A DNA stretch of 38,397 nucleotides, taken from a virus. The DNA lies in the IMG/VR virus record IMGVR_UViG_3300009414_000027, positions 1 through 38,397 of that record; one strand, written 5' to 3'. The notes beneath the pieces are model-generated. The model made no database searches. It was given only the letters and a program-made list of their open reading frames with translations, and had not been told where the DNA came from. The position numbers and the translations under genes are program-made. Shown here one piece after another: positions 8,552 through 30,204 of this stretch (its first letter is position 1; each line of letters starts with the position of its first letter).

Positions 8552-10429
8552 ATGCCATTTTTAAAATTTACATTCAGACCCGGGATTAATAAGGAAGGTA
8601 CTAATTACAGCAATGAAAATGGATGGTATGACGCTGATAAGGTCAGATTTCGGAAAGGTAAGCCAGAGCGTATAGGAGGATGGATTAAAAATTCTGCCAA
8701 TAGTTTCATAGGAACCTGCAGGAAAATTCTTACTTATAAGGATGCAGAAGGTGATTCCTATACTGTAATTGGTACGCATCAGAAATTATATGTTCAGGAA
8801 GGAAATGTTTTTAACGATATAACCCCTACCCGCAAAACATCTACCAATAGTATTACTTTTGCGGCAACTAATGGGTCTTCTACTGTTACTGTTACAGACA
8901 GTTCTCATGGTGCTGTAAATGGAGATTTTGTTACTTTTAGTGGTGTACAAAGTGATGGACTCGGTGCAGGGGGAAATATAACTCAAACTGTTTTACAGCA
9001 AAAATATCAAATTGCATTGGTAACAAGTGCGAATGCTTACACTATAGTTGCTAAGGATACCTCTGGAGATGAAGTTACCGCAAATTCGGATGATGACGAA
9101 AATGGTGGCGCTGGTGTGGATGGAGTCTATCAAATCAATTCAGGACTTGATGTGTATGTTCCATCTACAGGGTGGGGCGTTGGGGCATGGGGTTCTGGTA
9201 CATGGGGTTCATCTACGGCGCTGACTGATAGCAATCAACTCAGGTTATGGTCTGTAGACACTTTTGGGGATGATGTGCTTGCCTGTGTCAGGGGAGGTGG
9301 TATTTATTACTGGGACGAATCTGCTGGTGTTACTACTGCAGCTGTAAATATCAGTACCCTTTCTGGAGCTAGCGATACACCCACTGTTGCCCTTCAGGTA
9401 ATGATGTCTGATGTTGATAGGCACGTTATTGCAATAGGATGCAATGCAATTGGATCATCGACACTTAACCCGTTACTGGTCAGGTTTTCAGATATTGAAT
9501 CTGCTGCTGACTGGACTCCTACTGCTACGAACCAGTCTGGTGGAGTTCAGTTGTCTACTGGGTCTGAAATTATTGGGGCTATTCAAGCCAGACAGGAAAT
9601 CCTCATATGGACAGATGCTGGAATTGTATCCATGAGATTTGTCGGTTCTCCATTTATTTTCAGCTTTTCTGAGGTGGCAAGGGGGCCTTCTTTAATAGGT
9701 CCAAATGCTGTTGTTAATGCCAATGGTCGAATTTATTTCATGGACAGGGATGGTTTCTATTCTTATTCTGGTTCTGCATCCCGTCTTGCGTGTACGGTAT
9801 TGGATTACATATTAAGTGATATTAATTTCACGCAATCTTATAAAGTTTTTGGGGCAGTAAATGATAATGCCAATGAGATTATGTGGTTTTATCCGTCAAG
9901 CAGCAGCGATGAAGTAGACCGATACGCTCTATATAATTATCTTGAAAATGTCTGGTCGATTGGCACAACTTCAGATAATTTTGTAAGGACTGCTTGGGAT
10001 GAAGCTTTGATTTTAAATTATCCTATTGCTACCAGTAAAAATGATAGTAGTAATCTTAATTATATTTATGATCACGAAAGGGGTCATGGAGATAATGGAG
10101 AATCATTTGATTCATATATTGAATCAAGTGACTTTGACCTGACCCCAGACGGAGAACATTTTATGTTCTTATCAAAACTTATACCCGATATTGAATTCAG
10201 GGACCAGACATCAACGGCCAATGAAGTAACATTCACTATTAAAGGCAGGGATTATCCATTGCAAAGCTTGTCTACATTATCCACTACTGCTGTAACTCCA
10301 GCTTCTACATTTTCAAATACTAGGGCGCGTGGCAGGCAGTTTGCACTCAGAGTATCGAATTCTTCCAGTGATTACGGGTGGAGACTTGGTGATCTCAGGC
10401 TTGAATTGAGGCCAGACGGAAAAAGATAA
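8552..10429 (+). CDS. Virion structural protein (tail/neck type)
   Basis: A 625-residue protein starting at the base after the endolysin stop, preceded by TTGGAGGGATAA. The N-terminus FRPGINKEGTNYSNENGWYDADKVRFRKG, shown here in part as GINKEGTNYS and GWYDADKVRFRKG, then PERIGGW, is a strongly conserved opening of a structural family in podoviruses and related phages. The body is beta-rich and repetitive (GSSTVTVTDSSHGAVNGDFVTF; WGVGAWGSGTWGSS; GRIYFMDRDGFYSYSG), possibly a beta-propeller. It is generally annotated as a tail or head-tail protein; the exact position in the virion is not clear from sequence. It begins the structural block. Confidence 0.7.
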   Translation: MPFLKFTFRPGINKEGTNYSNENGWYDADKVRFRKGKPERIGGWIKNSANSFIGTCRKILTYKDAEGDSYTVIGTHQKLYVQEGNVFNDITPTRKTSTNSITFAATNGSSTVTVTDSSHGAVNGDFVTFSGVQSDGLGAGGNITQTVLQQKYQIALVTSANAYTIVAKDTSGDEVTANSDDDENGGAGVDGVYQINSGLDVYVPSTGWGVGAWGSGTWGSSTALTDSNQLRLWSVDTFGDDVLACVRGGGIYYWDESAGVTTAAVNISTLSGASDTPTVALQVMMSDVDRHVIAIGCNAIGSSTLNPLLVRFSDIESAADWTPTATNQSGGVQLSTGSEIIGAIQARQEILIWTDAGIVSMRFVGSPFIFSFSEVARGPSLIGPNAVVNANGRIYFMDRDGFYSYSGSASRLACTVLDYILSDINFTQSYKVFGAVNDNANEIMWFYPSSSSDEVDRYALYNYLENVWSIGTTSDNFVRTAWDEALILNYPIATSKNDSSNLNYIYDHERGHGDNGESFDSYIESSDFDLTPDGEHFMFLSKLIPDIEFRDQTSTANEVTFTIKGRDYPLQSLSTLSTTAVTPASTFSNTRARGRQFALRVSNSSSDYGWRLGDLRLELRPDGKR

Positions 10430-10632
10430 TGTCTGATATAAAAAATGTAACACTGCCCATTCCAAGCGATGAGTACGATTTAACCAATGAATCTACAACC
10501 CGTAGAACTATCGAACAAGCCATACAAAGTATGAATAGCAAGATGGACCGTCTTCAGAGAATGCAAGAAAGTATTACCAGTAAATCTTTAAGAAGACATC
10601 AATTTTTATTGATGGGTGCAAAAAATGACTGA
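10429..10632 (+). CDS. 67-residue protein, unknown function
   Basis: A small protein whose ATG overlaps the upstream stop (TAATG). The N-terminus is extended (MSDIKNVTLPIPSDEYDLTNE), followed by an amphipathic helix (TTRRTIEQAIQSMNSKMDRLQRMQESI). Its position between two structural genes suggests a small virion or scaffold component. Its last eight bases overlap the next gene. Confidence 0.7.
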   Translation: MSDIKNVTLPIPSDEYDLTNESTTRRTIEQAIQSMNSKMDRLQRMQESITSKSLRRHQFLLMGAKND

Positions 10633-10963
10633 TATTCTGAAGGTTTTAGGGCAGGTGGATACGGCAGCAACTACGGTTACGACCCTTTATACAGTTCCTA
10701 ACCTGACCCAGACCACAATCAGCAGTTTTGTGGCCTGCAACAGGACTGGTTCAGCGATTACATTCAGGCTATCTGTCCATGTCGCTGGAGCATCAGCACA
10801 TGACAAGCAGTATTTGTTTTATGACAAGTCTGTAGCAGCGAACACCACTTTGACGATGGTAATTGGAATGACGCTGGGGCAAACAGACGTACTGAAGGTG
10901 TATGCATCTGCAGTGGATATGTCCTTTAATTTATTTGGCTGCGAGACTAAGGAAGAGAGATAA
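10625..10963 (+). CDS. Small beta-rich virion protein
   Basis: A 112-residue protein starting MTDILKVLGQVDTAATTVTTLYTVPNLTQTTISS. The ATG at 10625 is preferred over an in-frame GTG at 10616, since homologs usually begin this way. Alternating polar and hydrophobic residues (VACNRTGSAITFRLSVHV, VLKVYASAVDMSFNLFG) predict a single beta sandwich. This family is common beside tail and neck genes of marine phages; decoration or tail accessory protein is the best guess. Confidence 0.6.
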   Translation: MTDILKVLGQVDTAATTVTTLYTVPNLTQTTISSFVACNRTGSAITFRLSVHVAGASAHDKQYLFYDKSVAANTTLTMVIGMTLGQTDVLKVYASAVDMSFNLFGCETKEER

Positions 10964-10964
10964 G

Positions 10965-12461
10965 ATGGCAGGTCTTTCTCAACCAACTGCTTCGGACATT
11001 GAAGCCTTAAAGAGAAGACAGTTTGGTAGAGATGCTAGATTTAAAAGGCTGTTTGAAGCACAGAATAGAGAGTTATATGACTTGGGTTTACCTGTTGAAG
11101 GGCCTTTTAACAAGTATAAAGATCAATACCTTAACCTTGAGCTTTATCTTAAGGACTTGCAAGAGAAAGGCAGGCCAGCGCACGAAGACCCTCTTTTCGG
11201 GTATGAAAATCGTGGTCTTCTGCAGCTAGCCATTCAAAAACAGAAGCAGCAATTAGGAATTTCAAATGATCGTGATCTCGCAACATGGCCTGAATCCGTT
11301 GGTTATCCGTATGTTCCTGCTTCTATAGAAGCTGATCTCATTGAACGTATGGGGCCATATGGTCGTTCTGCTATCGATATGTCACGAGTTACTGTTCGCC
11401 CATATGAAGTGAAAAGAAGGGCTGGTGAATATCAGGTTCCCGTAGAGCGGCATATGCAACACTATCCCAGTTACATTAGGGGGAGAACGCCTGAGGAATA
11501 TGGGAAATGGGTAGCGAAAAGCAGAGAACAAAGCACAGGAATTGGTCTGAAAGGTCTTGATACTTGGATGAGAACCAATCCAATTGGTAGGGAATATGCG
11601 TTGGGGATATACAAAAGAAGAGCCGAGGATGCAATGAGGGAATTGCCTGAAGGTGAATCCCTCGATCCGACATTGCAGAAACACTTAGATAAAGCGAATT
11701 TGCTTGAACGGCAAACATTAGAGAGAGGCATAGGAACTACTAGGATTCCTATGATAAAGCCATATGATCCAGCTGGAGATGAGATCGTTATGTACAAGCA
11801 GGCAAGCCTTCCTTCATTAGCTCACGAGTTCAGGCATCGATATGTAAGCCAACAAGGGGAATTCCCTCGGGTGAATCTATTGGAGTCGACTGTTATACCA
11901 ACCCCCCATCATGCAGGCAGATTTGATGAAGAAGAGCGATGGAATCGTAAGTTCGGTGCTTGGAGGGCTTCTACCCCACACGAGTGGGGGAGAGCAGTGG
12001 GTCAATGGCAGCTTACCTTGGGTGGTTCGGAGAAAATATCACCGATTCAAGCAGAAAAGTCTTTGAAGAAACATCTTTCTGGTGGCCGAAAGTCTTTCAT
12101 TCAAGCGGAAGTTGATGCCGTAAAGAAACATGGATATACAGTACCCAGAAGAGGTTTGTTCAGTTTCAATGATGCAAAGCAGGAATCATCCAAAACTGCA
12201 GATGCAAGGGAATTGTCAAGACAGGAACCGATGACTGATGCCGAGTGGAGATCACTTTTATATAAGGCTTGGGGCAGGCAAGCTTATGAACTTGCCGAGT
12301 CAAAATTACTGGAAGGAGGCTCCGAAAAAGATAAAAAGGAGTGGGAGCGTATATATGGATTGGTATATGCCGATTACTTGAAGCGAAATAAGGGTGTCCG
12401 TCATAGGAGCTTCGAGGAAAGAAAAAAACAATATGAAGATAAGTATGGACTCTCCCCATGA
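10965..12461 (+). CDS. Ejection-region protein with HExxH (putative zinc metallopeptidase)
   Basis: A 498-residue protein. The ATG at 10965 (GGAAGAGAGATAAG upstream) is preferred to one at 10902 inside the previous gene. Residues 287-291 are H-E-F-R-H in SLPSLAHEFRHRYV, preceded by strand-like GDEIVMYKQ, the usual layout of a zincin zinc site. A third ligand may be one of the acidic residues in RFDEEERW. The N-terminal half is charged and helical with no known domain. The motif is short and could be chance, but a hydrophobic lead-in and strand before it support a real site. It overlaps the next start by four bases and belongs to the structural block, so it may be packaged and cut host or virion protein. 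Confidence 0.6.
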   Translation: MAGLSQPTASDIEALKRRQFGRDARFKRLFEAQNRELYDLGLPVEGPFNKYKDQYLNLELYLKDLQEKGRPAHEDPLFGYENRGLLQLAIQKQKQQLGISNDRDLATWPESVGYPYVPASIEADLIERMGPYGRSAIDMSRVTVRPYEVKRRAGEYQVPVERHMQHYPSYIRGRTPEEYGKWVAKSREQSTGIGLKGLDTWMRTNPIGREYALGIYKRRAEDAMRELPEGESLDPTLQKHLDKANLLERQTLERGIGTTRIPMIKPYDPAGDEIVMYKQASLPSLAHEFRHRYVSQQGEFPRVNLLESTVIPTPHHAGRFDEEERWNRKFGAWRASTPHEWGRAVGQWQLTLGGSEKISPIQAEKSLKKHLSGGRKSFIQAEVDAVKKHGYTVPRRGLFSFNDAKQESSKTADARELSRQEPMTDAEWRSLLYKAWGRQAYELAESKLLEGGSEKDKKEWERIYGLVYADYLKRNKGVRHRSFEERKKQYEDKYGLSP

Positions 12462-14389
12462 CTAGCCTAGCAGAAGCTTATCCAGTAGGTTTCGGGGGAT
12501 ATTCCCCTTCGGTTCAAAGTTATCTTATGCCTGATAACAGGCGCGGATATCAGGTAGGTGGTGCTGCTGAGTTACAGAGGTCATCAGACAAAAGGCCAGT
12601 ACGTTTTCGTCCCCGCATCAATGAAGCGTTTATCCCCCGTAAAAGGTTTGAGCGCGCAATGCTGGAAGGCCGAGTCCCAGTGACTAGGTCAGGCTTGAGA
12701 TATGCCCAAGGCCCTTCCTTAATGGACCCGAAGCCTGATGCCAGTCCGAGGGGGTCGATCTGGGATGCTCCATTCGGTACTCCAACTAAAGGGCTTACCC
12801 CCGCTCAGAATTTATGGTTGCTGGCGAATGCAGCCACTCTTCCTGTAACAGGGACCACTGGTTTGGTGGGTTTGGGAGCTTTGTATGGAAGTGGTTATGC
12901 CCCAGATATACCCGCAGGAGAAAGGGTTGATCCAGAAACAGGGGAAACCATACCAGCGACAAAGATAAAGGATATGTTTAAAAAAGAGAATAGGATTCCC
13001 AGTATAAGGCAGCACTGGAAAGAAGGGCAGAAGGGGACAGCGGCATTACAGGCAGGATTGGGGATCGGGCTTCCGTTGGTGGCGAGGGGCGCTCAGACCA
13101 TGCTGGCACGAACCGGTAGGGGTCCCGCTCAACTAGAACTTCCTCTGGGTACGGGTGGTCTCGGTGGAATGCCAATGACAAGAAGGGAGTTCTTCGAAAA
13201 GACAGGTCTGACAGCCGCAGGTCTTGGCGCATTGGCATCCGGAATAGGAAAAGTCTCAAGACCTGCAAGTACAGCCGCTGCAGGAACAACCCGTATGGAT
13301 GTAGACGGATTTATGGGAGTTATCAATAAGCTATCAAAAGACAGGAAATACCGACCCAATCCTTTGCATTTAAATCGGAACGCCTTATTAAAGGTTCCTC
13401 ATTCTGGAGGCTCTGTTCTCGCGAAATATCATCCAGATAATTTACACACATTTGGTTTGACTGCTCAGGAACACAAAGGATTAGGATTTTTGGATAACTT
13501 GTGGGATGCCGGGAAACTTGATCGATATGGATTGACTGCACATGATTTCAGCCGAATTGATCTGGAGTTACTGGAAAGATTCCATTTGATGGGTCGATTT
13601 AAACCGAAAGCAACAGCAAATCTTGATTACAATCCAAAACACACTGTAGAACTTTTTGAGATTCATGGTGTGCCAGTGATTCAAGATGCATCTGGGTCCG
13701 TTTTTGTTCCAAATGCAACTGCTTTGGTTAAAGCACAAAAAACGCAGGCTTTAGAACTCGTTTCTAATATTGATCCAAGGTTCAGAAAAGTTATAAATCA
13801 GAGAACTCCTTATACTCCTCAGGAGGCTAGATTAGCTCGTGCCGCCGAATTCGAATTTGATAAAATACCTCTTGCTGGCAGGGGCGACATAGGAAAACCA
13901 TTGGGTTCTTTTAAAGGTATAAGTGCTGCAGATGAACCACGACAGTGGGAGGGCTTCTCAAAATCCGAGAAGTATGCTACGCCCGCCGGAGGCTGGACCC
14001 CACAATCCAGAATGGCGCATTCTAAATTGTATCAAGAGCAAGGCCGATTCCCAGAAACTCTTCAATATAATTTAAGTGGACAGCCTGTCATTTCTAATAA
14101 GATGGGGTCTTTTGTTGTAGGTAAGGGTGGCACAGTATTGCGTAATCATGGTGGTCAAACCAAGTGGGTGATAGGACCACAAAGACGAATGAACTCGCGA
14201 GCCTATCTGATATCCGATGAGTTTGGTATGTTTAGTGGCAGAGCGGAACAAGTCCCTATGGGTACTTCATCTTCAAGTCCAGTGGCTAGACGAGCGGGTG
14301 ATTTTGATCCGCGTGTGTTGATGAGTACAAGAGATGAATATATAAAAGGCTACGCTAATTACCTGAAAAAGATGCCGTGGGAAAAATGA
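12458..14389 (+). CDS. Ejection-region protein with internal twin-arginine motif (paralog A)
   Basis: A 643-residue protein of unknown function. The N-terminus SLAEAYPVGFGGYSPSVQSYL is nearly shared with the next gene (NLAEIYQAGSGGYSPSVQRYL), showing common descent. Residues 28-35 are RRGYQVGG, a motif recurring in other proteins here. Two hydrophobic Gly/Ala stretches follow (LLANAATLPVTGTTGLVGLGALYGSG, about 125-150; TAALQAGLGIGLPLVA, about 195-210). Residues 241-266 read TRREFFEKTGLTAAGLGALASG, close to a Tat signal but internal. The C-terminal half is polar with no recognised domain. It lies in the run of ejection genes, so it is probably an internal virion protein that meets the host membrane (inference). 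Confidence 0.65.
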   Translation: MTSLAEAYPVGFGGYSPSVQSYLMPDNRRGYQVGGAAELQRSSDKRPVRFRPRINEAFIPRKRFERAMLEGRVPVTRSGLRYAQGPSLMDPKPDASPRGSIWDAPFGTPTKGLTPAQNLWLLANAATLPVTGTTGLVGLGALYGSGYAPDIPAGERVDPETGETIPATKIKDMFKKENRIPSIRQHWKEGQKGTAALQAGLGIGLPLVARGAQTMLARTGRGPAQLELPLGTGGLGGMPMTRREFFEKTGLTAAGLGALASGIGKVSRPASTAAAGTTRMDVDGFMGVINKLSKDRKYRPNPLHLNRNALLKVPHSGGSVLAKYHPDNLHTFGLTAQEHKGLGFLDNLWDAGKLDRYGLTAHDFSRIDLELLERFHLMGRFKPKATANLDYNPKHTVELFEIHGVPVIQDASGSVFVPNATALVKAQKTQALELVSNIDPRFRKVINQRTPYTPQEARLARAAEFEFDKIPLAGRGDIGKPLGSFKGISAADEPRQWEGFSKSEKYATPAGGWTPQSRMAHSKLYQEQGRFPETLQYNLSGQPVISNKMGSFVVGKGGTVLRNHGGQTKWVIGPQRRMNSRAYLISDEFGMFSGRAEQVPMGTSSSSPVARRAGDFDPRVLMSTRDEYIKGYANYLKKMPWEK

Positions 14390-14410
14390 TTTTAAAGGAA
14401 GTATACAGCG

Positions 14411-15547
14411 ATGCCTAATCTAGCAGAAATTTATCAGGCAGGTTCTGGGGGATACTCTCCTTCAGTCCAGAGATATCTTTTGTCATCTTATGATCCAGAG
14501 AAAGCCATGATTGAGCCGAAATGGATTCATCAGCCTAGGATATCTCCGACTTCGGAATACACGGGTGACCTAGGACCAAATTTGCCATCGGCATCAACTA
14601 GGATGCGTAATGTAAATGAGGCTGTTTTGGAGGGTGGCAAGAGGAATCTGCCCAATATGCCTACTGGACTTCAACAGGCATGGTTCTGGGGGTTGATGAC
14701 TCCTCCCGGAATTGCTGCTGATATTAGTGGGAAATATCCAGTACCACCGGGGAGGAAAACTACCTTTAAGGAAATGGTGGCTGGTGAGAAAATACCAAGT
14801 GTTGCAGAACATTTTAAAACTGGACACCCTGTTAGGGGCGGTCTTCAAGTGCTTGCTGGATTACCTTATCTCAGACCATTTCTTAAAGCTGGACAGGGTA
14901 TTTACAGGACTGCTAGACCAGCTTCTGTAATGAGCGATACTCCGAATATAAGCAGAAGAAAGTTTGTGGCGGGTACGGGGGCAGCAGCAGCTATTGCAGG
15001 GCTTGGTGGATTGGGAAGATTAATTTCGAAAGGCAAGGCTGCTACTGGAATGCAGAGAGGAGATGACTTTGCAACAATAAATGCAATACGCGATTTTACC
15101 CAACCTCGAAATATACGGCCTCATAGAGCAAATCCTCTGCGAGGCGGGACAGTAAATCAAGTAAATCAACCGCAAGTCAGGAGATTCGGAAGGACAGCTA
15201 ATATTAATCAACAATGGGATGAGGCTACCGAGGCTGTTATTAGAAACAGGAATATCCAAGGTGCTGGAGGAGCCAACAGAAGGCAGGCTGTTGCTAACCT
15301 AGAGGCAAGGATTGATGATGCTATTCTGGATGCACAACTAGCCAGACAGAGTGGACAGAGTCCAGCTGACTTTCAGAGAATGACGATAGCTGCTGATAAC
15401 CATATGAGTCGAATGGGGGCTTCTTTAGCCAGACATAGTCAGGGGCAGGCAATGACTCCAAAGTGGCTTACGGACTATGCTCGTGGGGACAAAAAACTAT
15501 ACGAAGAAATGTTGAAGAGATATGGAATGAAGCCTCCAGTTAAATGA
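14411..15547 (+). CDS. Ejection-region protein with internal twin-arginine motif (paralog B)
   Basis: A 378-residue relative of the upstream protein. It shares the GGYSPSVQxYL start, a TxxGIAADISGKYPVPPG segment, and the order KIPSxxxHxKxGxxxxxxLQxxxGLPxLRP. Residues 181-187 are S-R-R-K-F-V-A followed by GTGAAAAIAGLGGLGRLI, a textbook twin-arginine motif plus hydrophobic core, but about 180 residues from the N-terminus. The C-terminal part (AVIRNRNIQGAGGANRRQAV onward) is helical and basic. The gene has its own ribosome site (AAAGGAAG). The pair looks like an old tandem duplication that then diverged in the C-terminal half. Confidence 0.65.
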   Translation: MPNLAEIYQAGSGGYSPSVQRYLLSSYDPEKAMIEPKWIHQPRISPTSEYTGDLGPNLPSASTRMRNVNEAVLEGGKRNLPNMPTGLQQAWFWGLMTPPGIAADISGKYPVPPGRKTTFKEMVAGEKIPSVAEHFKTGHPVRGGLQVLAGLPYLRPFLKAGQGIYRTARPASVMSDTPNISRRKFVAGTGAAAAIAGLGGLGRLISKGKAATGMQRGDDFATINAIRDFTQPRNIRPHRANPLRGGTVNQVNQPQVRRFGRTANINQQWDEATEAVIRNRNIQGAGGANRRQAVANLEARIDDAILDAQLARQSGQSPADFQRMTIAADNHMSRMGASLARHSQGQAMTPKWLTDYARGDKKLYEEMLKRYGMKPPVK

Positions 15548-15601: not shown

Positions 15602-18415
15602 ATGACATTAAGTTTACAACAGCAAGCGAGAAACGTAGCCAGACAGGGTCGTTACGGTGATTCCATGTTAATGCACGTTAATCCTGCCGAAGTCAGGGGT
15701 CTATCTTCCGCGATGCCGCTAACGGTTAATCCACAGACAGGGCAACCAGAGGCATGGGCTTTTCTTGCACCACTCCTTGGATCAATGGCTGGACCAGCTT
15801 TGTTTGGCAGTAGCGCCCTTTGGGCTAGTGCGCTTGGGTCTGGTCTGGCTCAATGGGCTGCAACAGGTGACCTTAAGAAAGGTCTTTTGGCTGGTGTTAC
15901 TGGTTATGGAATCGGTAGTGCGCTGCAGGGGGCTGGGGCTGCGGCTTCAGGGGCTGGTGCAGAACAGGCTGCTCTGGGTTCATTAACAGAAGGAGCAACT
16001 GCAGACTTATTGGCTAATCCTGAATTTGCCAATATTTCTGCCCACACTGCTGGTGGTGGGTACGGTCAAATACCGTATCAAGCTCCAACTTTAAATCCAG
16101 CAGGACAGACGGAATTAGCAAAGCAACTTGGTTCAACTCTACCCGGTTCAATTCAGGCTCAGGCTGCGGATATCGGTAGAGGAGCGGGGATGCAATACTC
16201 TGCCCTAGACAGTTCACCTTATGAGAATTTGCAGACAGCTTTAAACACCGGTCCCTATGCCGACCCCAGTTACCAGCCGGGAGTTTTAGGCAAGGCGGAA
16301 AACCTGATGGCTGGGCTTTCGCAGCCGAGTGCTTATATTCCTATGGCTATGGGAATGGGTCCTACGGCTATGATGGAATCCAGAGAACAATATGATCGAA
16401 TGCTGGAAGAAGAAGAGGAAAAAAAGAAAGAAAGAAAAAGAAAGCTTTTTGCCATGCATCCTGAGCCGATACTTTACCAGAGCGGTGGACGCACTGGATA
16501 TCAGGATGGTGGTGGAGCAATTGCAGGTGGCACAATGGATAGTGACTACAGCGATTACTACACTGGTGAATATGACTGGACTGGACAAGGGACAATCCCG
16601 CCCGGAGAAACTGGAGCTTTATATCCAGAGCGTCAACAGTATCTTCTGCCACAGACATACCAACCGGGATTTATGGGTGAGTTCATGTATTTTGATCCTG
16701 CAACCTTGAATCCTTCTGCTGCTGATGTTGAGGGAACTGGAACGGCTGGACTTCCTCCGCAAGATGGAGGGGCAACTCCAGAAGGTCCGCCTACATTTGA
16801 CTGGCGGTATCCGACTGCACCTCCTGTATTCGGCCCGACAGAAAGTCTTGGTTATCGCGGTTTTTATGGCGCTGGAGATGTTCCGCCAACAGGTCCGATA
16901 GGTATTGCGGACGAAAGCGTTCCACCTCCAGCTGGTACAGGAGGTCCAGTCCCGCATATGGTTAATCCGTATTCACAGCAAAATTTCTGGAGGCCATCAC
17001 CTGTACAGTATCAATATCCAGAGCCTCCTTCTCCAGTTGATCCAGATCAGCCTTCGGTTGATCCAGATGAACCTCCGATCATGCCTCCAGTTGTTCCAGA
17101 TAGTCCGTGGGATGTTAAGCCTGTTGATCCTATTGCTGCATTACCACCACAACATGGAGTCTCGCCAAATCCGATAGGGTCAGGTTCTGGGATGACTCTT
17201 CAGGATATAGAGGTAGCTGCTACTTCTCCAAGTCCTGCCCAAGTGGCACAGAAAGAATTCAATGATGCACAACCGCCAGATATAAAAGAGGCATTTTCAG
17301 GTAATCCTACATTTATAGCTGCCGCAGATGCAGGTCTTTACCCACTGACCAGCGAAGGTAAAAATGCTTTTAGCATGGATACACTAGGGACAATGCCGGG
17401 TGGACCCCCAACGGGAGGTCAGGAAAAGGAACCACGGGCTTATAGTATAGATACTGGAGTGAACAGAAGGTTGCCAAGAGAGGAACTTATGGAATTGGCA
17501 TGGGAGGAGAAGCAGAAAGAGGGATATTCGCCGGGAGATATCTGGACTCCTCCTGCAGATTTGTATGGGGATAACCAAGAAGAGAGTTGGTACAACCCAG
17601 TAACAATGCAAACCAGAACATTTCCTTCAGGTGGATGGGGGCCTCCCCCTGAAGCAGGGTGGATACAAGGAACACCTCCTGTCGATGAAGAGCAATTAGC
17701 TGATCAATACCTTAAAGGATATATGTCTGGAGGCAGGACTGGGTTTCAAAATTTAGGAAGTACTGGCTTCCCTGATCTTGTTTCAGAGGTAACTCAACCA
17801 CAGGAGCAGATGTTAGCTGCACCTCCTCAGGCTGCACCTCCTCAGGCTGCACCTCCTCAGGTTGTATCTCCTCAGGTTGTATCTCCTCAGGCCGCTTCGA
17901 TGCAGGGTCCTCCAATGCAGGGGCCTCCGATGCAGGGTCCTCCGATGCCTATGCCTTCAGCTTCTCCAGAGGCAATGCTGGAAACTATTTTACAAGACCC
18001 ACTCACACAGGAAGTAAGACTTTTTATATTGGGCGAATCTGATAATGAAGAAGCATTAAGTGCATTTATTAGTAAGTATGGAACTGAGGCTTTCGTCATG
18101 TTGCGGGATATGATTCTTCAGGAAGTTGTACCCGGATCGCAGACACAAGGACAAATAGTTGGAACTGGAGCGGGTGGTATGGCAGATGATATCAATGGTG
18201 TCATTGGTGATAACAAGGAAAAGATAGCTGTATCTCAGGATGAATTCATAGTTCCTGCCGATGTAGTTTCTGGATTAGGAAATGGAAGCTCAGATGCTGG
18301 ATCAAAACTCTTATATTCCATGATGGATAATGTCAGGCAGCAGAGGACAGGTAATGCTGTGCAGCCCCCAGAAATAGATGCTCAAAAAATTATACCGGGG
18401 TTGGGCAGGGCGTAA
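15602..18415 (+). CDS. Large Gly/Ala/Pro-rich internal virion protein
   Basis: A 937-residue protein. The opening LSLQQQARNVARQGRYGDSMLMHVNPAEVRGL, given in part as ARQGRYGDSMLMHVNP, is conserved in marine podovirus structural proteins. Residues 50-130 are hydrophobic Gly/Ala-rich (FLAPLLGSMAGPALFGSSAL; GLLAGVTGYGIGSALQGAGA), suitable for membrane insertion. A very basic/acidic run EEEEEKKKERKRK lies near 275. Residues 294-304 and 709 onward carry GGRTGYQDGG and GGRTGFQ. A long Pro/Gly-rich middle is followed by PPQ and QGPP repeats and then a compact C-domain (MADDINGVIGDNKEKIAVSQDEFIVPADVVSGLG). The C-domain pattern VSxDEFVxPADVVSxLG is common in marine phage proteins. Role inferred: DNA ejection or core protein. 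Confidence 0.7.
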   Translation: MTLSLQQQARNVARQGRYGDSMLMHVNPAEVRGLSSAMPLTVNPQTGQPEAWAFLAPLLGSMAGPALFGSSALWASALGSGLAQWAATGDLKKGLLAGVTGYGIGSALQGAGAAASGAGAEQAALGSLTEGATADLLANPEFANISAHTAGGGYGQIPYQAPTLNPAGQTELAKQLGSTLPGSIQAQAADIGRGAGMQYSALDSSPYENLQTALNTGPYADPSYQPGVLGKAENLMAGLSQPSAYIPMAMGMGPTAMMESREQYDRMLEEEEEKKKERKRKLFAMHPEPILYQSGGRTGYQDGGGAIAGGTMDSDYSDYYTGEYDWTGQGTIPPGETGALYPERQQYLLPQTYQPGFMGEFMYFDPATLNPSAADVEGTGTAGLPPQDGGATPEGPPTFDWRYPTAPPVFGPTESLGYRGFYGAGDVPPTGPIGIADESVPPPAGTGGPVPHMVNPYSQQNFWRPSPVQYQYPEPPSPVDPDQPSVDPDEPPIMPPVVPDSPWDVKPVDPIAALPPQHGVSPNPIGSGSGMTLQDIEVAATSPSPAQVAQKEFNDAQPPDIKEAFSGNPTFIAAADAGLYPLTSEGKNAFSMDTLGTMPGGPPTGGQEKEPRAYSIDTGVNRRLPREELMELAWEEKQKEGYSPGDIWTPPADLYGDNQEESWYNPVTMQTRTFPSGGWGPPPEAGWIQGTPPVDEEQLADQYLKGYMSGGRTGFQNLGSTGFPDLVSEVTQPQEQMLAAPPQAAPPQAAPPQVVSPQVVSPQAASMQGPPMQGPPMQGPPMPMPSASPEAMLETILQDPLTQEVRLFILGESDNEEALSAFISKYGTEAFVMLRDMILQEVVPGSQTQGQIVGTGAGGMADDINGVIGDNKEKIAVSQDEFIVPADVVSGLGNGSSDAGSKLLYSMMDNVRQQRTGNAVQPPEIDAQKIIPGLGRA
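17815..17955 (+). repeat. Tandem 15-bp repeats encoding Pro/Gln-rich peptides
   Basis: Successive 15-base units encode AAPPQ three times, then VVSPQ twice, then related MQGPP units three times, within the large internal virion gene. Copies are nearly identical (GCTGCACCTCCTCAG), so copy number may vary between relatives. It probably forms a flexible linker before the C-terminal domain. Confidence 0.85.
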
Positions 18416-22002: not shown

Positions 22003-25000
22003 ATGGCACAGTACAGATTACCTGACGGAAGAATTTTAACCGTTCCCGACAACGCAAGTCGGGAAGAGTTAATTGGTATTCAAAACAGGTTAAGCGACCT
22101 TTACCCTGATTATTACCAGCAGCACAGGGAGGAAGTCCAGACTACTTTCGGTGGGCATCTGGAAGAATTGGTCAAGGGTGTACCTAGGGGTCTGGCTGGT
22201 GCATTTATTTCTGCTGGGGAAGGAGTATCAAATCTTCTTTCTGTCGGCAATGAGAGTGGTGCTTCCAGATACTTTCGTGATTTGCAAAAGAAATTAAATG
22301 AGAGTGCTGTTGGGGTAGACCAAGGATACGAAGATGCTTTCTCTGCCAAGCTTGGAGCGGGTCTTGGTTCTTTTGCTGCTTTCGCGATACCCGCCACAGC
22401 TACGGCAAAGGCTTTGGGTGTTGCTGGTAAGCTATCAAGGGCGCAGCAGGCTCTCAGGGCAAATAAAATAACCCTTCCACAATATGAGAAAATGAGAAGG
22501 TCTCTTTACATGAAGCCTTCTCTTGCCGCGATGAGTCTGGCGGTTCCTGTCGGTATCTCGGAACAGGGTAGAAATATAGCCTTGGCTAGGGAGATGGATG
22601 AAGAGGTTTCGCCATTCAAGGAAATCGTGTCTGAAGTTTTGGGCGGTGGAATAGGTGCAACGGAGGTTTTCCCTCTATTCAGTATGTTCAAGCGTATGCC
22701 CAAAGCGGCTGGTCCTTTATTAAAGATTCCGCAAAGGTTAAGGCAGGCAGCAACAACAGGTACGGCAGAAGCTCTACAGGAATCATTGGCAGGGATAGCA
22801 CAGGATGTAGTAGCAACTGGAATTTATAGCGACAAGATACCGATTGGTGAAAGTTTTCTGGATGACTTTACTGTTGGTGGTGCAACTGGTGCGATAGCTG
22901 ACCTGATATTCAGGGGTGTTGCTGGAAGGAAATCTTTGGGTAATGCATATGAAAGAGAAAGGGAAGCGGAACTAAGAAAGAAAACAGAGGCAAGATTCAA
23001 GACCAGAGCAGCGAGGACTAGGGAAGCAGAGGCTGCTGGTGCGCCCTCTATAAGTCCAGAACTTCAGCCAGAAAGGGACCCTCAACTTGAGCTTCCGCTG
23101 ACGACTGCCCAAGAAACTACTGTGGGTATAGAGCCTGTTCCTGTGCTTGAAGAATTTGAACCCATACAGAATCCAGACGGTACATTTTCAGTAATAGGTT
23201 CTGTTACTGGAAAGAATATCGGTACTTTTCCTGATATTGAAGAGACGGCTAATGCTGCATTAGATGCAACAAAACAGTTACGGGAAGATTTTATTGATTC
23301 TTCTGTTAAACAGTCACTCTCCATAAATGGATTGTATGGAAATGGCAATGCATTCAGGATAGGTGAAATTGTTTATGATCCTACTGGGAACTTAATCGAT
23401 GCCAAAGCGGTAGCGAATTATGATTCTGATTACAGTGTACGCAGGCAAAAACAAAAAGAAGATCAGTCAGTAGAAAAACTTGCCCGTGATGAGCAATTTT
23501 GGGGGCAATTCGGACAAGCAGTTTTGCCTCTTGGTGATGCTGCTGCAGAAAGTGACTTATTCAGGATTCAAAGTGAAAAAGAAATTTCCGATATATTGCA
23601 GCAAAGCAGGGTTTCAAAAAAGGTAGCAGACAATGTAGCCAAGAGAGTCTATGACGCAAAAGTTCAGGCGAGAAAATATCGTCTCGGACAGACTCAATCT
23701 ATATATGATATCAAGGGAGTAGATAATTCAAGTGTTCTTGGTCAGCTTTGGGCCAAGGCAAAAAAGTTGGGAGTTCCTGTAAAGAGTTTTTATACGATTC
23801 AGGAAGCTAGAAAAATATTATCTGCCCCTGATTTCAATAGCCTGATGTCTGAGAAGGCGGCTATCGTATTACAAGGGCAAAGAGTTGATGTTGAAGCAGG
23901 CTATAGAACCGAGACACAACCTGAGACTTATCAGGTAAGGATTAAAGATAAGATAGAAGAAATCAGGGAAGCTCGCAAAGTTCCACTTGCTAGGAAAGAC
24001 GGTAGAATTGATGTAAGCAAGAAAGCTTTTGACAAAGTCTTTAATGAAAAAAATATAGAAGTAGATTATAGAAGTCCAGAGTTCCAGTATTTTGCAGAAT
24101 CCGTTGCTGGTTCAAAATCATTGGGAACCATGAGCCGTGGGCAAAAAGAAATGCTAATGGCCCGTGTCATTCAACTGAACAGGTTTAGTAGTAAGAGGAA
24201 GTTACCTGACTTCAGGCCAAGACCTTATACTGCCAAGCAACTGAATGAATTTTATGAAGCAAGTAAGGGAGAGTATATTACTACCCCTCAAATCAAGAAT
24301 TTCGTTAAGAATAATGAAACAGGGCAGAATTTAACAAAGAAACAAATTGCATTGCTCAGGCAGGACCTGATCAACAGTGGCCGTGCTGACAGGGCTAAGA
24401 ATAATAGAATCCGTATGGCTGAAGATTTTGATATGAGGCAGGCCAGAAACGCAGCACCTTTAAATGAAACTACAGAAGAGTTTGTGGAAAGGTTGGGTTC
24501 TTCTACAAACCTTACTCAGGAAGAAATATCTAATCTTTCCAGAGAGAATATTGATTTAGGTGAAAGGATTACGCCAGAAAGCCTGAAGCGGTTACCTCCC
24601 CCAGAAGGCTATTCAAATATGGCTACCTATAAACAGTTTTTTGATGAGGCGCGTAAAAGGCTTTCTGATATGGGACTTAAAGATATTGGATTGAAATTCA
24701 ATAATGCTCTTGCATCCTCTATGGGTCTTTATCAGGTAGGTCCCAATGGGGAGATTATTAAAAATGCAGCTAAGTTCGATTCAAGAAATGATATGTTTTT
24801 CGAGCCTCGCGATGCTATTACTACAGGAGAATTTGATGCGCCTATGCGCCGTATACTTATTTCTCTTGACAATATTAATCCAGAAGGAAAGAAGACTGAA
24901 GAGGAGATGAGGGATTCGATAGCGCAAGTCATAGACCATGAGGTAATACACGCTCTGATTAGGCTTGATTTGTTAACCGAGCGCGAATACCAGAATCTTG

Positions 25001-28000
25001 TTAGCGAGGCAAACAGGGTATTGCCGAAAGAAGTTACAGATAGTATTACTGAGAATTATGCTGATCGAGATGGATTTAATGCCGAGGTAAGAAGGGAAGA
25101 AAAAGTTGCGGAATTGTTCAGACTCTATCGCAGTTCTCCAGATAAAATTGCTAAAAATCCACGCACTATAATAGAAAAAATTATCTCATTCTTTTCAAAT
25201 ATTATTGAGTCCATTTTTGGCGCTGGCTTCAGAAGCCCGACAAGTATTATGGAAAGTATAGCAAGCGGAGAGATTGGACGACGGTCACGCGATGAAGTAA
25301 GAAGTCTTAGAGAATTAAGAAACCTAGAGGCAACAACAGGGATACCTGTGGATATTGCGAGATATGGTCGTCATGGTTTAGTACCTCAGGATGTCCTTTT
25401 TTCAGGAACAGTTGAAGACGCGGTCTGGTCTCTTTACAAAAGGTTTCGTGGAAATATTCCAGCTAGTGAAATGAAAAAACTTTACAAGGAAGTTTCCCCA
25501 TTAGGCAAAAGAAAACATTCTTTCAGGAATTTAGCTGATATAAGAAAAGACCTTGTTTCTTCCGTAAAGATGGGAATTGACAGGTTCTGGTATGAAAGAT
25601 TCGGCAGGGAAGTTCCTCTTCTTGTTGGAAGTGCAAATATGAACGAGTTCAGTAAGGTCTTTGGAATTACTTCCGCACAAACAAGTCCAGAGGTCAACTT
25701 TAAAGACACACTAAGGACGATGATTATCGCTAGGAAAATCGATCCCGTAAAAGAATCATCCAAGTTTATAAGGGAATTACATAACTTCGGGGTAGGGAAA
25801 TCTGATCCAGCCAGAATAAAATCAATTCAGAAAGTTTATGAAACAGGGGTATTCCATCCTGAGTATGGGCAAAAAACAGCTACCTATGCTTTGGAAATTC
25901 TTGAAGCAGCGAACAATAGTTTTAGCCCTTGGAGCGTAATCGACAGACATATGTTGGCAATTCTTGGGTTCGATGGTGGAAAGATGCAAAAAGGGGAAAC
26001 CATTGAGGAATTTACAGAAAGGACTGGGCTGAAAAAGGAGCAGCCTAGTTTCACAGAAAAAGAATATAGAATCATGCAGGCCATGATGTCGCTTTTGGCT
26101 ACCGAAAATTACACGATTAATGGTGAACCTTTTAATTTTTCTTTTCCTAGGCAGGTTCAGGCTTCATTATGGGGATTTCAGAAATACAAAAAAGGTTCTC
26201 CAAATGAAGGAACTTGGGATAGTTCTGTTCAACACGCTAAAGAAGAAATCACAGAATTAAATGAACTTATAAAAGAAGGATTATTCACTAAAGATAAACC
26301 TTTGACTGGTAGTAACTTTATTTCATCTCCTCTCTTTACCTCTTCATTGGCAAAGGATACTTTCAGTACTGATCAACAGGACTCAATGGCCCGTGCTATT
26401 TTGGCTCATTCGCCAGCAGTTATCTTTCAAACAAAGATGGGAGTCAAAAGAGGGTATTTCCCAGAAACATTGGATACACCTGTATCCCGTGAAACTTTGC
26501 ACAACTACCAGACCAACCTTTTAAAATCCATTGCTGTTGGGAATCAGATTGTGGCGTTGAGGGAAATGCTTATTCCCCATCAGATTAGTATTTCTAATGG
26601 AACTAGATTGGGGGACTTGGCCCCTGAAATTATCCTGAGGTTACCGGGCGCTCCACCAAAATTGGTTCATGGTGTGACTGCGCTTATGGTGGATGCGCTG
26701 ATGCTGGATTCGGCAACTACAAGTATGCCCCAACCAAAAGGAAAGAGGCATACTGGCCTTCAGCTTGTGAAGCCTTTAAATAAAGACTTTACATTAGAAG
26801 AGATCGAAAACCTTGCGGCATCTTTGAAGGGAATGACCAGATTGGTTGCGGGTCGGGAAGTGCCTGTTGATTTTACAATTTCTTCTACCGAAAGGTCTGG
26901 AATTATTTTATCGGACCCCAGAGCTTGGGAGGATAATTATTCTGAACAGGATTTAAGGGATTTTTATAGCCAGTTACAATCAATTGCAGGAGAAAGTGGT
27001 TACACACTGAAAACTTATGGAGAAGACACAGAACTCATCGAATATGAACAAACGGACGAAAATGGGGAACATATCGACTACCCGATTAGAGGAGATACAG
27101 AAATCCTTGGGGATCGTCAAATCGAAGGAGACAGATTCGATTTACAAAGAACCCTCCTTAACTATCTTTACATCCCCGCCTTTAACACCTACAAAAAATT
27201 CGCAGAAGAAATCGGAATAGCAGTTAATAATAATATACCTGCACTTGAGGAAGGTTCTGCTATGGCTGGACAGTTTCCTCTTACACTCAAGGAATATGAT
27301 GGAATGTCCAGAGCAGCACAAGCTACTCGTGATGCTCCTAGGGGATGGATTCCTCACGTTAATCCTAATGCAAGCAAGCTTGCAATCCAGATTCTGTACG
27401 ACATTCAGGACGGGAAGCCTCTGGATGAATCATACGGATACGAAAGCCCTGAAGATATTCCAAGATTTTCCAAGGGCCAAGCTGCAACACCAGCCAAATA
27501 CCTTGAGGCTTCTGAAGCAATCGGTGGCGCTCGTCAGGCAGAGATGCCATTCGGGTACAGGTTGCTTGATGTTGCGGATACGAAAGAAGACGTAGATACA
27601 ATTTTCAATAGAATCAGAAGAGGGATTATTGACAAATATACCTTTACTGAAAAATTTGTTGGAAAGGCAATTGAAGTTAGCCCAGAAGCCGCAGCCATGA
27701 ATTTAATGGCGGACTCTGGGGCTATACAGGCCATCAGGTGGGTTGAAAGGGCCAGAGGAATATTTGCTGGAATGATCAAGTACGGCACTCCCACCCTAAA
27801 AAGTGGAGTAACGGGGGTGGAATTTAATACTGGGCTTCTGGAAATTCTGGTCCCGTTATTTGCAGACCCGAACATCAACAAGGAAGAACTTTTCAAAATT
27901 TATAGTATAGGCATAAGGGGAGAAAGGTTGAACTCGGATGGTATTCTGGTTCCACTAGATCAGAAGACGATTGACCTTGCGAAAGAAATTGAAATCGATT

Positions 28001-30204
28001 ATCCAGAAGTGGTTGAGGTCTGGAAAAATTACCAGATATGGAATAACAAGCTGATCGATTATGCAGTGGAAACAGGAATATTAAGCAACGTAAGAACTAA
28101 TGGAGAATTAATAGCAGATATAGTTGAAAGCAGAAAATCCATATATCCAGAAGCAGAACTGAAGGATATGGAGAATGCACAGTTACTTCAGATTGCTGGA
28201 GAGCTTGGGCTGGAGACCCGTGGAACTGCACAAATCTGGAAAGATAATTCTGATTATTATCCCTTCTACAGGAAAATGACCGATGAAACGATCAAGGGTC
28301 CCAATGTCGGGTCAGGTCTTCTTGTCGGGAATCCATTGAATATTGCATTGAAAGGAAGCGAAGAAGCGATAGAACCTGCACCTATGGAGGTTATTGCCAG
28401 AAATTCACTTTCCATATTGACTGCAGGTATGAAGAATGATGCCTTGCGAAAACTTTCCAAGACTTTTGAGTTGGCTAATATGGCCGTAAAGGTTGATGCC
28501 AAGAACGCTCAAGGTATAGACATCCTTCCAGTCTTTGAGAACGGGGTTAGGGTTTTTTACAAGGTTGCAGACCCTCTTATGATTGACGCGATGCAGTCAG
28601 TAGGAATGCAGGATTTACAGGGTGTAATGAAAATTTTGGCAGTTCCAGCAAGTTTCCTCAGGGAGATGGTTACGAGAGACCCAGCCTTTATCCTTGTCAA
28701 TATGATGCGTGATACGGTCAGTGCCTATGTCACAAGTGGTGCTGATTTTACACCAGTGATAGATACCTTTAGGAATTATGGTGCGGATATTACTGAATTG
28801 GAACGGTTCGGGGTAGTCGGTGGTTATGACTACTCCACGGATGAGATGGATATTGTCAAGTTTATCAAGAAAGAAATGCGTAAACAGGGCGTTGGAACGA
28901 ATGGCTCCCTGTCTGCTAAAGACGCTTTTATGAAGTTATGGGATTTCATGGGAGAACAGACATTATATTCAGATGCGTCTACTCGACTGGCAGTTTATAA
29001 GAAGGTTAAGGAGCTAACTGGGAACGAGGCAGAGGCCGCTTATCAGGCGATGGAGATCATCAATTTTTCCAGAAGGGGAGCGAACCCTCTCTTCAGAATT
29101 ATTACGGCATCGATCCCGTTTATGAATGCAAGAATTCAGGGACTGGATGTTCTCTACAGAGGATTACTTGCTGGTAAATATTCTGCTGTGAGAAAACTCC
29201 AGCATGGCGAAAAGCAGGGGGACATGGAGAGGGATATTATATTTAATGCCCTAACGCGGGGTGGGTTCCTGATGCTTATGACCCTTCTTTATTATGCTTG
29301 GGTTTCAGATGATGAGCAGTACAGGAACCTCAGGCGCGAGGTCAGGGATAATTACTGGGTTGTTCCCACCCCTTGGGGGGTTTCTGGGAAGATTCCTATC
29401 CCATTTGAAGTAGGAGTCCTGTTCAAGGTTATTCCAGAAAGAATGGCAGACCTGATGTTTGGTGAGGGTGGAATGAATGAACTCATCGAGAGCTACAGTA
29501 GACAGGGAGTTTCAACGCTCAAAATAGACCCATTAGGCTTTCAGGTACTCAAGCCATTCTTGGAGGCACTCCGAAACAAGAGCAGCTTCACAGGCACGGA
29601 AATTGTTCCGAGTTATATGGAGGAAGGATTGGAGAAGGGATACCAGTCCAGATACCAGACGAATGAACTCGCTAGGCTTATCGGGGAAGGGATGAATCTT
29701 TCTCCGATGAAAATTGAATACGCCCTGCGTGGTTACGGGGGAACTCTAGGGACCTATCTCCTCACCCTGATTGATGTCGCTCTCAGGCAGGCCACTGGAA
29801 GGGATTACATCAGGCCGAGATTAGACCAAGCCCCCATCCTGAGGAGGTTCTTCCAGACTCCATACGGGGGTGGACTCCAGCAGCAGTATTATGAACTCAG
29901 AACGATTAGCAATCGATTTGTGCAGACTATGAACTCTTTGAGGGATGAGGGCAGGCTGGATGAGTTAGAGGCTTACAGGCAGAATCACGGGGGTCTTGTA
30001 CGCACCAGAGGCCAAGTCCTTGCCATAGACCGTTACCTGAGGAATTGGAGGAACAGGAGGGACAGGGTGCTGCACTCAGATGCCTCCCCTTCTGAGAAGA
30101 GGACCTTGATCAACCAGATGGAATCGGACAGGGATGTACGGCTGGCGAATGTCCCAGAACTACGCGAAAAGGCTGATATTCCCGTTGTAACCTTGGGCCT
30201 TTAA
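22003..30204 (+). CDS. Giant polyvalent ejection protein (zincin motif, LPD38-like C-terminus)
   Basis: A 2733-residue protein, in the position of T7 gp16. The N-terminus (YRLPDGRILTVPDNASREELIGIQ) is followed by Gly/Ala-rich membrane-type segments up to about residue 190. Residues 979-983 are H-E-V-I-H in QVIDHEVIHALIRLD, a probable zinc peptidase site. Residues about 1200-1320 (FGITSAQTSPEVNFKDTL, GQKTATYALEIL, WSVIDRHMLAILGF) follow the Lys...Asp order of HhH-GPD DNA glycosylase-like phage domains; this is tentative. Residues about 2220-2400 (VTRDPAFILVNMMRDTVSAY; NFSRRGANPLFRIITASIPF; ARIQGLDVLYRG) match large polyvalent protein domain LPD38. A hydrophobic helix follows (FLMLMTLLYYAW). 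Such proteins are thought to enter the cell with the DNA carrying several effector domains. No lytic transglycosylase motif was found. Confidence 0.75.
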   Translation: MAQYRLPDGRILTVPDNASREELIGIQNRLSDLYPDYYQQHREEVQTTFGGHLEELVKGVPRGLAGAFISAGEGVSNLLSVGNESGASRYFRDLQKKLNESAVGVDQGYEDAFSAKLGAGLGSFAAFAIPATATAKALGVAGKLSRAQQALRANKITLPQYEKMRRSLYMKPSLAAMSLAVPVGISEQGRNIALAREMDEEVSPFKEIVSEVLGGGIGATEVFPLFSMFKRMPKAAGPLLKIPQRLRQAATTGTAEALQESLAGIAQDVVATGIYSDKIPIGESFLDDFTVGGATGAIADLIFRGVAGRKSLGNAYEREREAELRKKTEARFKTRAARTREAEAAGAPSISPELQPERDPQLELPLTTAQETTVGIEPVPVLEEFEPIQNPDGTFSVIGSVTGKNIGTFPDIEETANAALDATKQLREDFIDSSVKQSLSINGLYGNGNAFRIGEIVYDPTGNLIDAKAVANYDSDYSVRRQKQKEDQSVEKLARDEQFWGQFGQAVLPLGDAAAESDLFRIQSEKEISDILQQSRVSKKVADNVAKRVYDAKVQARKYRLGQTQSIYDIKGVDNSSVLGQLWAKAKKLGVPVKSFYTIQEARKILSAPDFNSLMSEKAAIVLQGQRVDVEAGYRTETQPETYQVRIKDKIEEIREARKVPLARKDGRIDVSKKAFDKVFNEKNIEVDYRSPEFQYFAESVAGSKSLGTMSRGQKEMLMARVIQLNRFSSKRKLPDFRPRPYTAKQLNEFYEASKGEYITTPQIKNFVKNNETGQNLTKKQIALLRQDLINSGRADRAKNNRIRMAEDFDMRQARNAAPLNETTEEFVERLGSSTNLTQEEISNLSRENIDLGERITPESLKRLPPPEGYSNMATYKQFFDEARKRLSDMGLKDIGLKFNNALASSMGLYQVGPNGEIIKNAAKFDSRNDMFFEPRDAITTGEFDAPMRRILISLDNINPEGKKTEEEMRDSIAQVIDHEVIHALIRLDLLTEREYQNLVSEANRVLPKEVTDSITENYADRDGFNAEVRREEKVAELFRLYRSSPDKIAKNPRTIIEKIISFFSNIIESIFGAGFRSPTSIMESIASGEIGRRSRDEVRSLRELRNLEATTGIPVDIARYGRHGLVPQDVLFSGTVEDAVWSLYKRFRGNIPASEMKKLYKEVSPLGKRKHSFRNLADIRKDLVSSVKMGIDRFWYERFGREVPLLVGSANMNEFSKVFGITSAQTSPEVNFKDTLRTMIIARKIDPVKESSKFIRELHNFGVGKSDPARIKSIQKVYETGVFHPEYGQKTATYALEILEAANNSFSPWSVIDRHMLAILGFDGGKMQKGETIEEFTERTGLKKEQPSFTEKEYRIMQAMMSLLATENYTINGEPFNFSFPRQVQASLWGFQKYKKGSPNEGTWDSSVQHAKEEITELNELIKEGLFTKDKPLTGSNFISSPLFTSSLAKDTFSTDQQDSMARAILAHSPAVIFQTKMGVKRGYFPETLDTPVSRETLHNYQTNLLKSIAVGNQIVALREMLIPHQISISNGTRLGDLAPEIILRLPGAPPKLVHGVTALMVDALMLDSATTSMPQPKGKRHTGLQLVKPLNKDFTLEEIENLAASLKGMTRLVAGREVPVDFTISSTERSGIILSDPRAWEDNYSEQDLRDFYSQLQSIAGESGYTLKTYGEDTELIEYEQTDENGEHIDYPIRGDTEILGDRQIEGDRFDLQRTLLNYLYIPAFNTYKKFAEEIGIAVNNNIPALEEGSAMAGQFPLTLKEYDGMSRAAQATRDAPRGWIPHVNPNASKLAIQILYDIQDGKPLDESYGYESPEDIPRFSKGQAATPAKYLEASEAIGGARQAEMPFGYRLLDVADTKEDVDTIFNRIRRGIIDKYTFTEKFVGKAIEVSPEAAAMNLMADSGAIQAIRWVERARGIFAGMIKYGTPTLKSGVTGVEFNTGLLEILVPLFADPNINKEELFKIYSIGIRGERLNSDGILVPLDQKTIDLAKEIEIDYPEVVEVWKNYQIWNNKLIDYAVETGILSNVRTNGELIADIVESRKSIYPEAELKDMENAQLLQIAGELGLETRGTAQIWKDNSDYYPFYRKMTDETIKGPNVGSGLLVGNPLNIALKGSEEAIEPAPMEVIARNSLSILTAGMKNDALRKLSKTFELANMAVKVDAKNAQGIDILPVFENGVRVFYKVADPLMIDAMQSVGMQDLQGVMKILAVPASFLREMVTRDPAFILVNMMRDTVSAYVTSGADFTPVIDTFRNYGADITELERFGVVGGYDYSTDEMDIVKFIKKEMRKQGVGTNGSLSAKDAFMKLWDFMGEQTLYSDASTRLAVYKKVKELTGNEAEAAYQAMEIINFSRRGANPLFRIITASIPFMNARIQGLDVLYRGLLAGKYSAVRKLQHGEKQGDMERDIIFNALTRGGFLMLMTLLYYAWVSDDEQYRNLRREVRDNYWVVPTPWGVSGKIPIPFEVGVLFKVIPERMADLMFGEGGMNELIESYSRQGVSTLKIDPLGFQVLKPFLEALRNKSSFTGTEIVPSYMEEGLEKGYQSRYQTNELARLIGEGMNLSPMKIEYALRGYGGTLGTYLLTLIDVALRQATGRDYIRPRLDQAPILRRFFQTPYGGGLQQQYYELRTISNRFVQTMNSLRDEGRLDELEAYRQNHGGLVRTRGQVLAIDRYLRNWRNRRDRVLHSDASPSEKRTLINQMESDRDVRLANVPELREKADIPVVTLGL

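Follow-up and report, generated by a model that had tools for sequence, protein, structure and literature searches.

P643 and P378 (643 and 378 aa, respectively), which are encoded side by side in a phage that is uncultured and probably marine, carry well-supported signals of the twin-arginine (Tat) type, which are located deep within the chain and whose similarity to known Tat signals exceeds what chance would be expected to produce. The window (the whole stretch of DNA that was analysed, 38,397 nucleotides) is a linear IMG/VR record from a tailed phage. The explanation preferred here, to which we give about an even chance, is that these segments are masked Tat signals in phage cargo proteins, which would be uncovered by cleavage and used via the Tat machinery of the host.

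The preliminary description of this DNA had placed the motif TRREFF at residue 241 of one protein and SRRKFV at residue 181 of the other, each followed by a Gly/Ala-rich hydrophobic core. Both motifs were found at these sites (from T241 of P643, positions 13178–13195, and from S181 of P378, positions 14951–14968), and the cores following the Arg pairs are TGLTAAGLGALASG in P643 and GTGAAAAIAGLGGLG in P378. Their mean Kyte-Doolittle values of 1.19 and 1.47, respectively, as compared to 0.98 ± 0.40 for 50 other phage Tat cores, correspond to the moderately hydrophobic h-region of Tat signals. A six-frame search of the whole record with TIGR01409 returned exactly two matches at E ≤ 0.1, i.e. P378 (19.6 bits, E 6.9e-5, above the curated cut-off of 16.7 bits) and P643 (11.0 bits, E 0.038, below that cut-off). 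P378 also exceeded this cut-off in a protein scan (18.4 bits), and none of nine related phage records did so with the same profile. PF10518 matched P378 alone, at 20.3 bits and thus under its cut-off of 22.7. Additionally, an independent phage Tat profile, for which 50 Tat segments were taken from other viral contigs, gave its two best scores in the window to P643 (E 6e-4) and P378 (E 0.007), in that order, the next of all frames being at E 3.4, and the real score was reached by none of 2000 block shuffles of either protein (0/4000 together). Both proteins combine the Tat consensus S/T-R-R-x-F-x-K with a significant profile match, the Lys at the K position being absent from each. These results bear out the view that the motifs are of the Tat type and are unlikely to be due to chance. 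The Arg pairs, at residues 241 and 181, lie outside the N-terminal location of a Tat signal, and such a location would be attained only after processing or internal initiation.

P643 and P378 had also been taken to be paralogs that retain the motif despite their divergence, and the comparison of the two agrees with this: identity amounts to 67% over residues 1–24 (E 2e-6) and to 48% over the Tat block, as opposed to 26–30% in the variable parts. The shared 24-residue N-terminus is possibly a packaging or targeting peptide. Closer relatives of either protein were sought by scanning the proteins of IMG/VR and GTDB contigs, by tblastn against 50,697 phage records and with a degenerate pattern for the N-terminus; no independent homologue emerged, the same virus (99.97% identity) being the only relative found. 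Proteins encoded at the same position in the related phages DSL-LC04, HTVC027P, CRP-901 and contigs L017–L030 have no Tat block there. Neither P643 nor P378 produced a Pfam or PHROG domain match reaching the cut-off, neither has an LPD or other named domain, and the structure model of P378 (with P643) had a pLDDT of 32 and no modelled fold.

The genes are arranged in the order tail stabilisation-type gene, 115-aa, 519-aa, P643, P378 and 937-aa genes, followed later by the gene of the 2733-aa protein (Table 1), and from this order the label 'ejection region' for P643 and P378 can reasonably be inferred. Relatives of the tail stabilisation-type gene occur in marine and freshwater phages, e.g. 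HTVC027P, CRP-901 and DSL-LC04. The ATG of P643 overlaps the stop codon of the 519-aa gene, an arrangement suggestive of a single operon. Several related contigs have the 937-aa gene immediately after the 115-aa gene, and the 519/643/378 trio thus looks like an extra block of the source phage. The 519-aa protein, which gave no match in Pfam, NCBIfam or PDB, is a weak candidate for a zincin metallopeptidase on the strength of its motif. Elsewhere in the window, positions 3777–5063 encode a 428-aa protein in which an N-terminal signal-peptide-like segment precedes a long Asn/Thr/Ser-rich low-complexity stretch.

Table 1. Positions in the window of P643, P378, their segments and neighbouring genes
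Feature	Positions	Strand	Basis or remark
Tail stabilisation-type structural protein	8552..10429	+	phrog_3287; context
115-aa conserved protein	10616..10963	+	937-aa gene directly 3' in several relatives; context
519-aa frame, HEFRH motif	10902..12461, probable start 10965	+	directly upstream of P643
P643, 643 aa, internal Tat-type signal	12458..14389	+	ATG overlaps upstream stop (ATGA)
Shared N-terminal 24 residues of P643, MTSLAEAYPVGFGGYSPSVQSYLM	12458..12529	+	paralog comparison
Separator-type motif RRGYQVGG in P643, residues 28-35	12539..12562	+	similar RPRYQVGG in L120
GTGGLGGM shortly before P643 Tat block, residues 231-238	13148..13171	+	possible processing point
Tat block of P643, TRREFFEKTGLTAAGLGALASGIGKV, residues 241-266	13178..13255	+	TIGR01409 and phage Tat profile
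P378, 378-aa paralog of P643, internal Tat-type signal	14411..15547	+	
Shared N-terminal 24 residues of P378, MPNLAEIYQAGSGGYSPSVQRYLL	14411..14482	+	paralog comparison
Tat block of P378, SRRKFVAGTGAAAAIAGLGGLGRLISK, residues 181-207	14951..15031	+	TIGR01409, PF10518 and phage Tat profile
937-aa protein, conserved ends, GGRTGYQDGG-type motifs	15602..18415	+	context
2733-aa large polyvalent-type protein, LPD38 domain, HEVIH motif	22003..30204	+	context

Internal Tat patterns are present in other viral contigs. The pattern RR.FLK..G..AAG was found in 72 stretches of IMG/VR and, together with a companion pattern, gave 67 in-frame matches, and in 46 of these the match is preceded by over 100 residues of open frame; these counts include frames cut by contig ends and near-duplicate contigs. 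Grouping by the sequence after the signal placed 38 in one group, and L045, L048, L074, L086 and L104 represent at least five further groups that are unrelated downstream. In the T4-like marine contigs L045, L053, L078, L095, L104, L094 and L068, the Tat block directly follows a Glu, often as (L/I/V)-x-E, and the preceding residues are L-D-E or I-A-E in L104, L094, L068 and L078, which comes near to the L/I-x-E cleavage rule of T4 gp21. Acidic residues ahead of the Tat motif are common in ordinary signals, and the Glu is therefore only suggestive of cleavage. The C-terminal half of L104 additionally contains a Sec-like segment, GWRETLAGLAAAGIMALSPGISA, ahead of a similar domain.

The large group was sampled by means of the downstream peptide WFxPLVNK, a choice that is blind to the arginines; the peptide was searched as a DNA pattern, the alignment A2 being too diverse for a locus scan. 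The matches listed comprised at least 54 representatives at 85% identity, of which 53 were informative and one was cut off by a contig end. The preliminary description had raised the conservation of the Arg pair among homologues as a point to be settled, and for the related module it is conserved, with RR in 49, KR in four and KK in none of the 53 sequences (among the matches listed); for P643 and P378 themselves, the relatives are those of the same virus only. In an alignment of 49 module sequences the second Arg is invariant and the first nearly so, and the module proteins are rich in lysine, with about three times as much Lys as Arg (R/(R+K) = 0.26). Tat signals are known to tolerate KR, though not KK, and the module shows this pattern among the matches listed.

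The module occurs in two forms: as a stand-alone protein of approximately 260 aa with an N-terminal Tat signal (MDRRTLLKIMGG or MDRRTLLKIMGGIAALPALGKAIKG, e.g. in L114 and L148), and as an internal block in proteins of 400–1500 aa, the longest of which has 1542 residues (L087). Both appear to reside in a similar neighbourhood, between terminase and portal genes, as judged by the size, order and comparison with HTVC027P of the neighbouring genes. The isolated Pelagibacter phage HTVC027P encodes a divergent form in gp42, with GGRVGYADGPDDPSKRKFIKLGAGLMSLPIIGKY and GGRVGYADGPDDPSKRKFIKLGAG, between its annotated terminase and the portal-like gp43. Stand-alone copies in L114, L115, L119, L148 and L166 have a common C-terminal tail, GGLTKTVPPxKGPxSQGVExLFKRRY. 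In HTVC023P, the location between terminase and portal-like gp31, where related phages carry the Tat module, is occupied by gp30 (L228, 3718–4323), a 201-aa protein that starts with MSKKSRRRNRALGVIAGLMGAKALGMFG and has a basic-plus-hydrophobic N-terminus. Structure prediction for the module yielded a confident folded domain at residues ~40–210 preceded by a low-confidence Tat segment, so that the Tat segment is predicted to lie outside the folded domain. This modelled domain had no convincing match in the PDB (Foldseek best E 0.047; VIA-align best Z 4.3), and it matched two BFVD entries of uncultured viruses. A GTDB scan with the DNA pattern gave mostly unrelated chance matches and one true relative, on a SAR86-labelled contig, which keeps RR. 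The downstream domain of the module is not shared with P643 or P378.

A GGRxGFxxGG-type separator begins 7–15 residues before the Arg pair in 32 of 35 internal copies of the module, the separator core having been scored as R-x-[GPEN]-[FLYM], as in GGRTGFAGGG. The three remaining copies have near variants, and for positions drawn at random from these proteins the corresponding share is 7.3%. Such separators divide modules all along the long proteins, and their placement suggests that they may be processing sites that free the N-terminus of the Tat segment, although a separator could be a mere linker. No clear signal-peptidase site was seen in the internal Tat copies. With respect to the pair itself, P378 has neither a GG nor an L-x-E motif beside its Tat signal, and no obvious processing site, and an L/I-x-E site next to the Tat block is absent from both proteins. 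A related motif, R-x-[GPR]-[FYL]-Q-x-(G/L)G (as in GGRTGYQDGG, RTGFQTGG and RRGYQVGG), recurs between modules of long phage proteins, both in the window (residues 297 and 712 of the protein encoded at 15602–18415, residue 97 of that at 20284–21999 and residue 28 of that at 12458–14389) and at many IMG/VR loci, e.g. L054, L087 and L101; its recurrence possibly reflects a processing or packaging role.

The preferred explanation takes as its starting point the motifs and their excess over chance, the Arg conservation and the two forms of the module, and the fixed spacing of the separators. P643 and P378 would be cargo-type (ejection-region) proteins with a genuine Tat-type segment inside the chain, and would represent one case of an arrangement in marine phages whereby a Tat-signal module is placed behind a long N-terminal part. 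The signal would be masked during synthesis and packaging, until the N-terminal part is cut off by either a prohead protease or a zincin-type metallopeptidase, which leaves the Arg-Arg segment near the new N-terminus. Following delivery into the next host, the Tat machinery of that host would insert the fragment into the inner membrane or translocate it to the other side, and it may assume a role at the membrane, for example the early exclusion of other phages. Weighing against this proposal, P643 and P378 lack the downstream domain of the module, no independent homologue of them was found, P643 by itself falls under the TIGR01409 cut-off, and GGLGGM in P643 is the only candidate site near either signal. 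P. ubique is a free-living member of an order whose examined genomes all had tatC in a TatC survey (PMC3827258), and the hosts of related phages therefore probably have the pathway. The wider proposition, that the virions of many marine phages contain proteins whose Tat signals are masked, and that proteolysis at assembly or entry uncovers the signal and allows an injected fragment to arrive at the inner membrane or in the periplasm, by way of the Tat pathway of the host, ahead of any phage gene expression, is held more tentatively, its likelihood being somewhat short of even.

It is also conceivable, though unlikely, that the internal signal functions unprocessed, in which case the whole protein, having entered the host cytoplasm, would be anchored in the inner membrane through its internal twin-arginine helix and the C-terminal part alone would cross it, with no cleavage, as in the polytopic Rieske protein. 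Internal Tat signals do work in polytopic proteins (PMC13186574), in P643 and P378 alike the Tat block is preceded by two further stretches of weak hydrophobicity, and the lack of an obvious processing motif in P378 is in keeping with such an arrangement. The hydrophobicity of the preceding stretches is weak, however (0.7–1.4), and in the related module the tight spacing between separator and RR, together with the stand-alone N-terminal form, points to an exposed N-terminus. Rather improbable, in our estimation, is a generic basic or amphipathic helix of ejection proteins that is unrelated to Tat and serves membrane or channel insertion, the positive-inside rule or packing. Gly/Ala-rich segments are common in these proteins, their Tat transport is a prediction, and a loose pattern also picked up RRSLYMKPSLAAMSLAVP in the 2733-aa protein; yet that segment scores with neither Tat profile, the match in question spans the RRxFLKxxG consensus, and a role based on charge alone should permit KK, which is not found in the lysine-rich module proteins (0/53, among the matches listed).

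An internal translation start, yielding a second, truncated product whose Tat signal would be N-terminal in the usual way, is judged quite improbable. A Met shortly precedes RR in both proteins (MPMTRREFF in P643; MSDTPNISRRKF in P378) and in many relatives (GGMGRR, GGMSRR), the stand-alone form of the module begins with MDRR, and GGTGGA lies six bases before the second ATG in P643. Against this, RR is not closely preceded by a Met in many of the internal copies (e.g. GGIDKARR, KFVLDAARR, HSPGRR and FDPKRR), and no Shine-Dalgarno-like sequence was seen before the Met of P378 or in the relatives inspected, so that internal starts are unsupported as a general rule. Chance or composition, i.e. 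two Gly/Ala-rich paralogs that happen to resemble a Tat signal, is very improbable: P643 alone is weak with TIGR01409 and has no independent homologue, but the shuffles, the first and second ranks among the frames of the window, the conservation of the Tat block between the paralogs and the widespread occurrence of related modules all argue against it.

Injected phage proteins are usually viewed as acting in the cytoplasm or the ejection channel. Should masked Tat signals operate as proposed, phages would direct ready-made proteins to the inner membrane or the periplasm via the export machinery of the host at the first moment of infection, the Tat pathway would join the host factors used by phages, and a sequence handle would be available for such proteins among the many unknown genes of marine phages. 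Injected polyvalent proteins, processing in the prohead and Tat signals are individually known already; in the open-access literature we found nothing relevant on Tat signals in phage virion proteins, nor a report joining the three subjects.

In comparison with known systems, P643 and P378 resemble bacterial Tat signals (TIGR01409/PF10518) in their S/T-R-R-x-F core and weakly hydrophobic Gly/Ala-rich stretch, and the related phage module does so in its conserved Arg pair, with rare KR and no KK among the matches listed. They differ in that the signals lie 181–241 residues from the N-terminus and have no clear signal-peptidase site, and transport is in this case predicted. Large polyvalent proteins, which are thought to be injected and cut, with processing by metallopeptidases presumed on the grounds that their domains act on different cellular targets (PMC5512222), are likewise long mosaic proteins encoded near virion genes, and candidate zincin motifs are present in the same gene block here. 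Unlike these, P643 and P378 have no LPD or other named domain, LPD38 being found in the neighbouring 2733-aa protein, and the terms 'signal peptide' and 'transmembrane' are absent from the defining study of that class (Iyer et al. 2017, PMC5512222). T4 gp21 cleaves head proteins after L/I-x-E (PMC9026906), and ejection proteins of giant phages lose N-terminal propeptides of more than 100 residues (PMC5694885), those of SPN3US having 124–161 residues; in these systems an N-terminal targeting part precedes a mature part that is freed by cleavage, as is proposed here, and P643 and P378 have a 24-residue N-terminus in common that is at most a candidate for a targeting peptide. The GG-type separator differs from L/I-x-E or A-x-E, no protease is tied to it, and the available excerpts of the two reports describe no export signal. 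Finally, a natural internal twin-arginine signal functions in the Streptomyces Rieske protein QcrA (PMC13186574), which differs from the phage proteins in being a cellular membrane protein of the polytopic kind, its Tat segment preceded by helices that are inserted by Sec.
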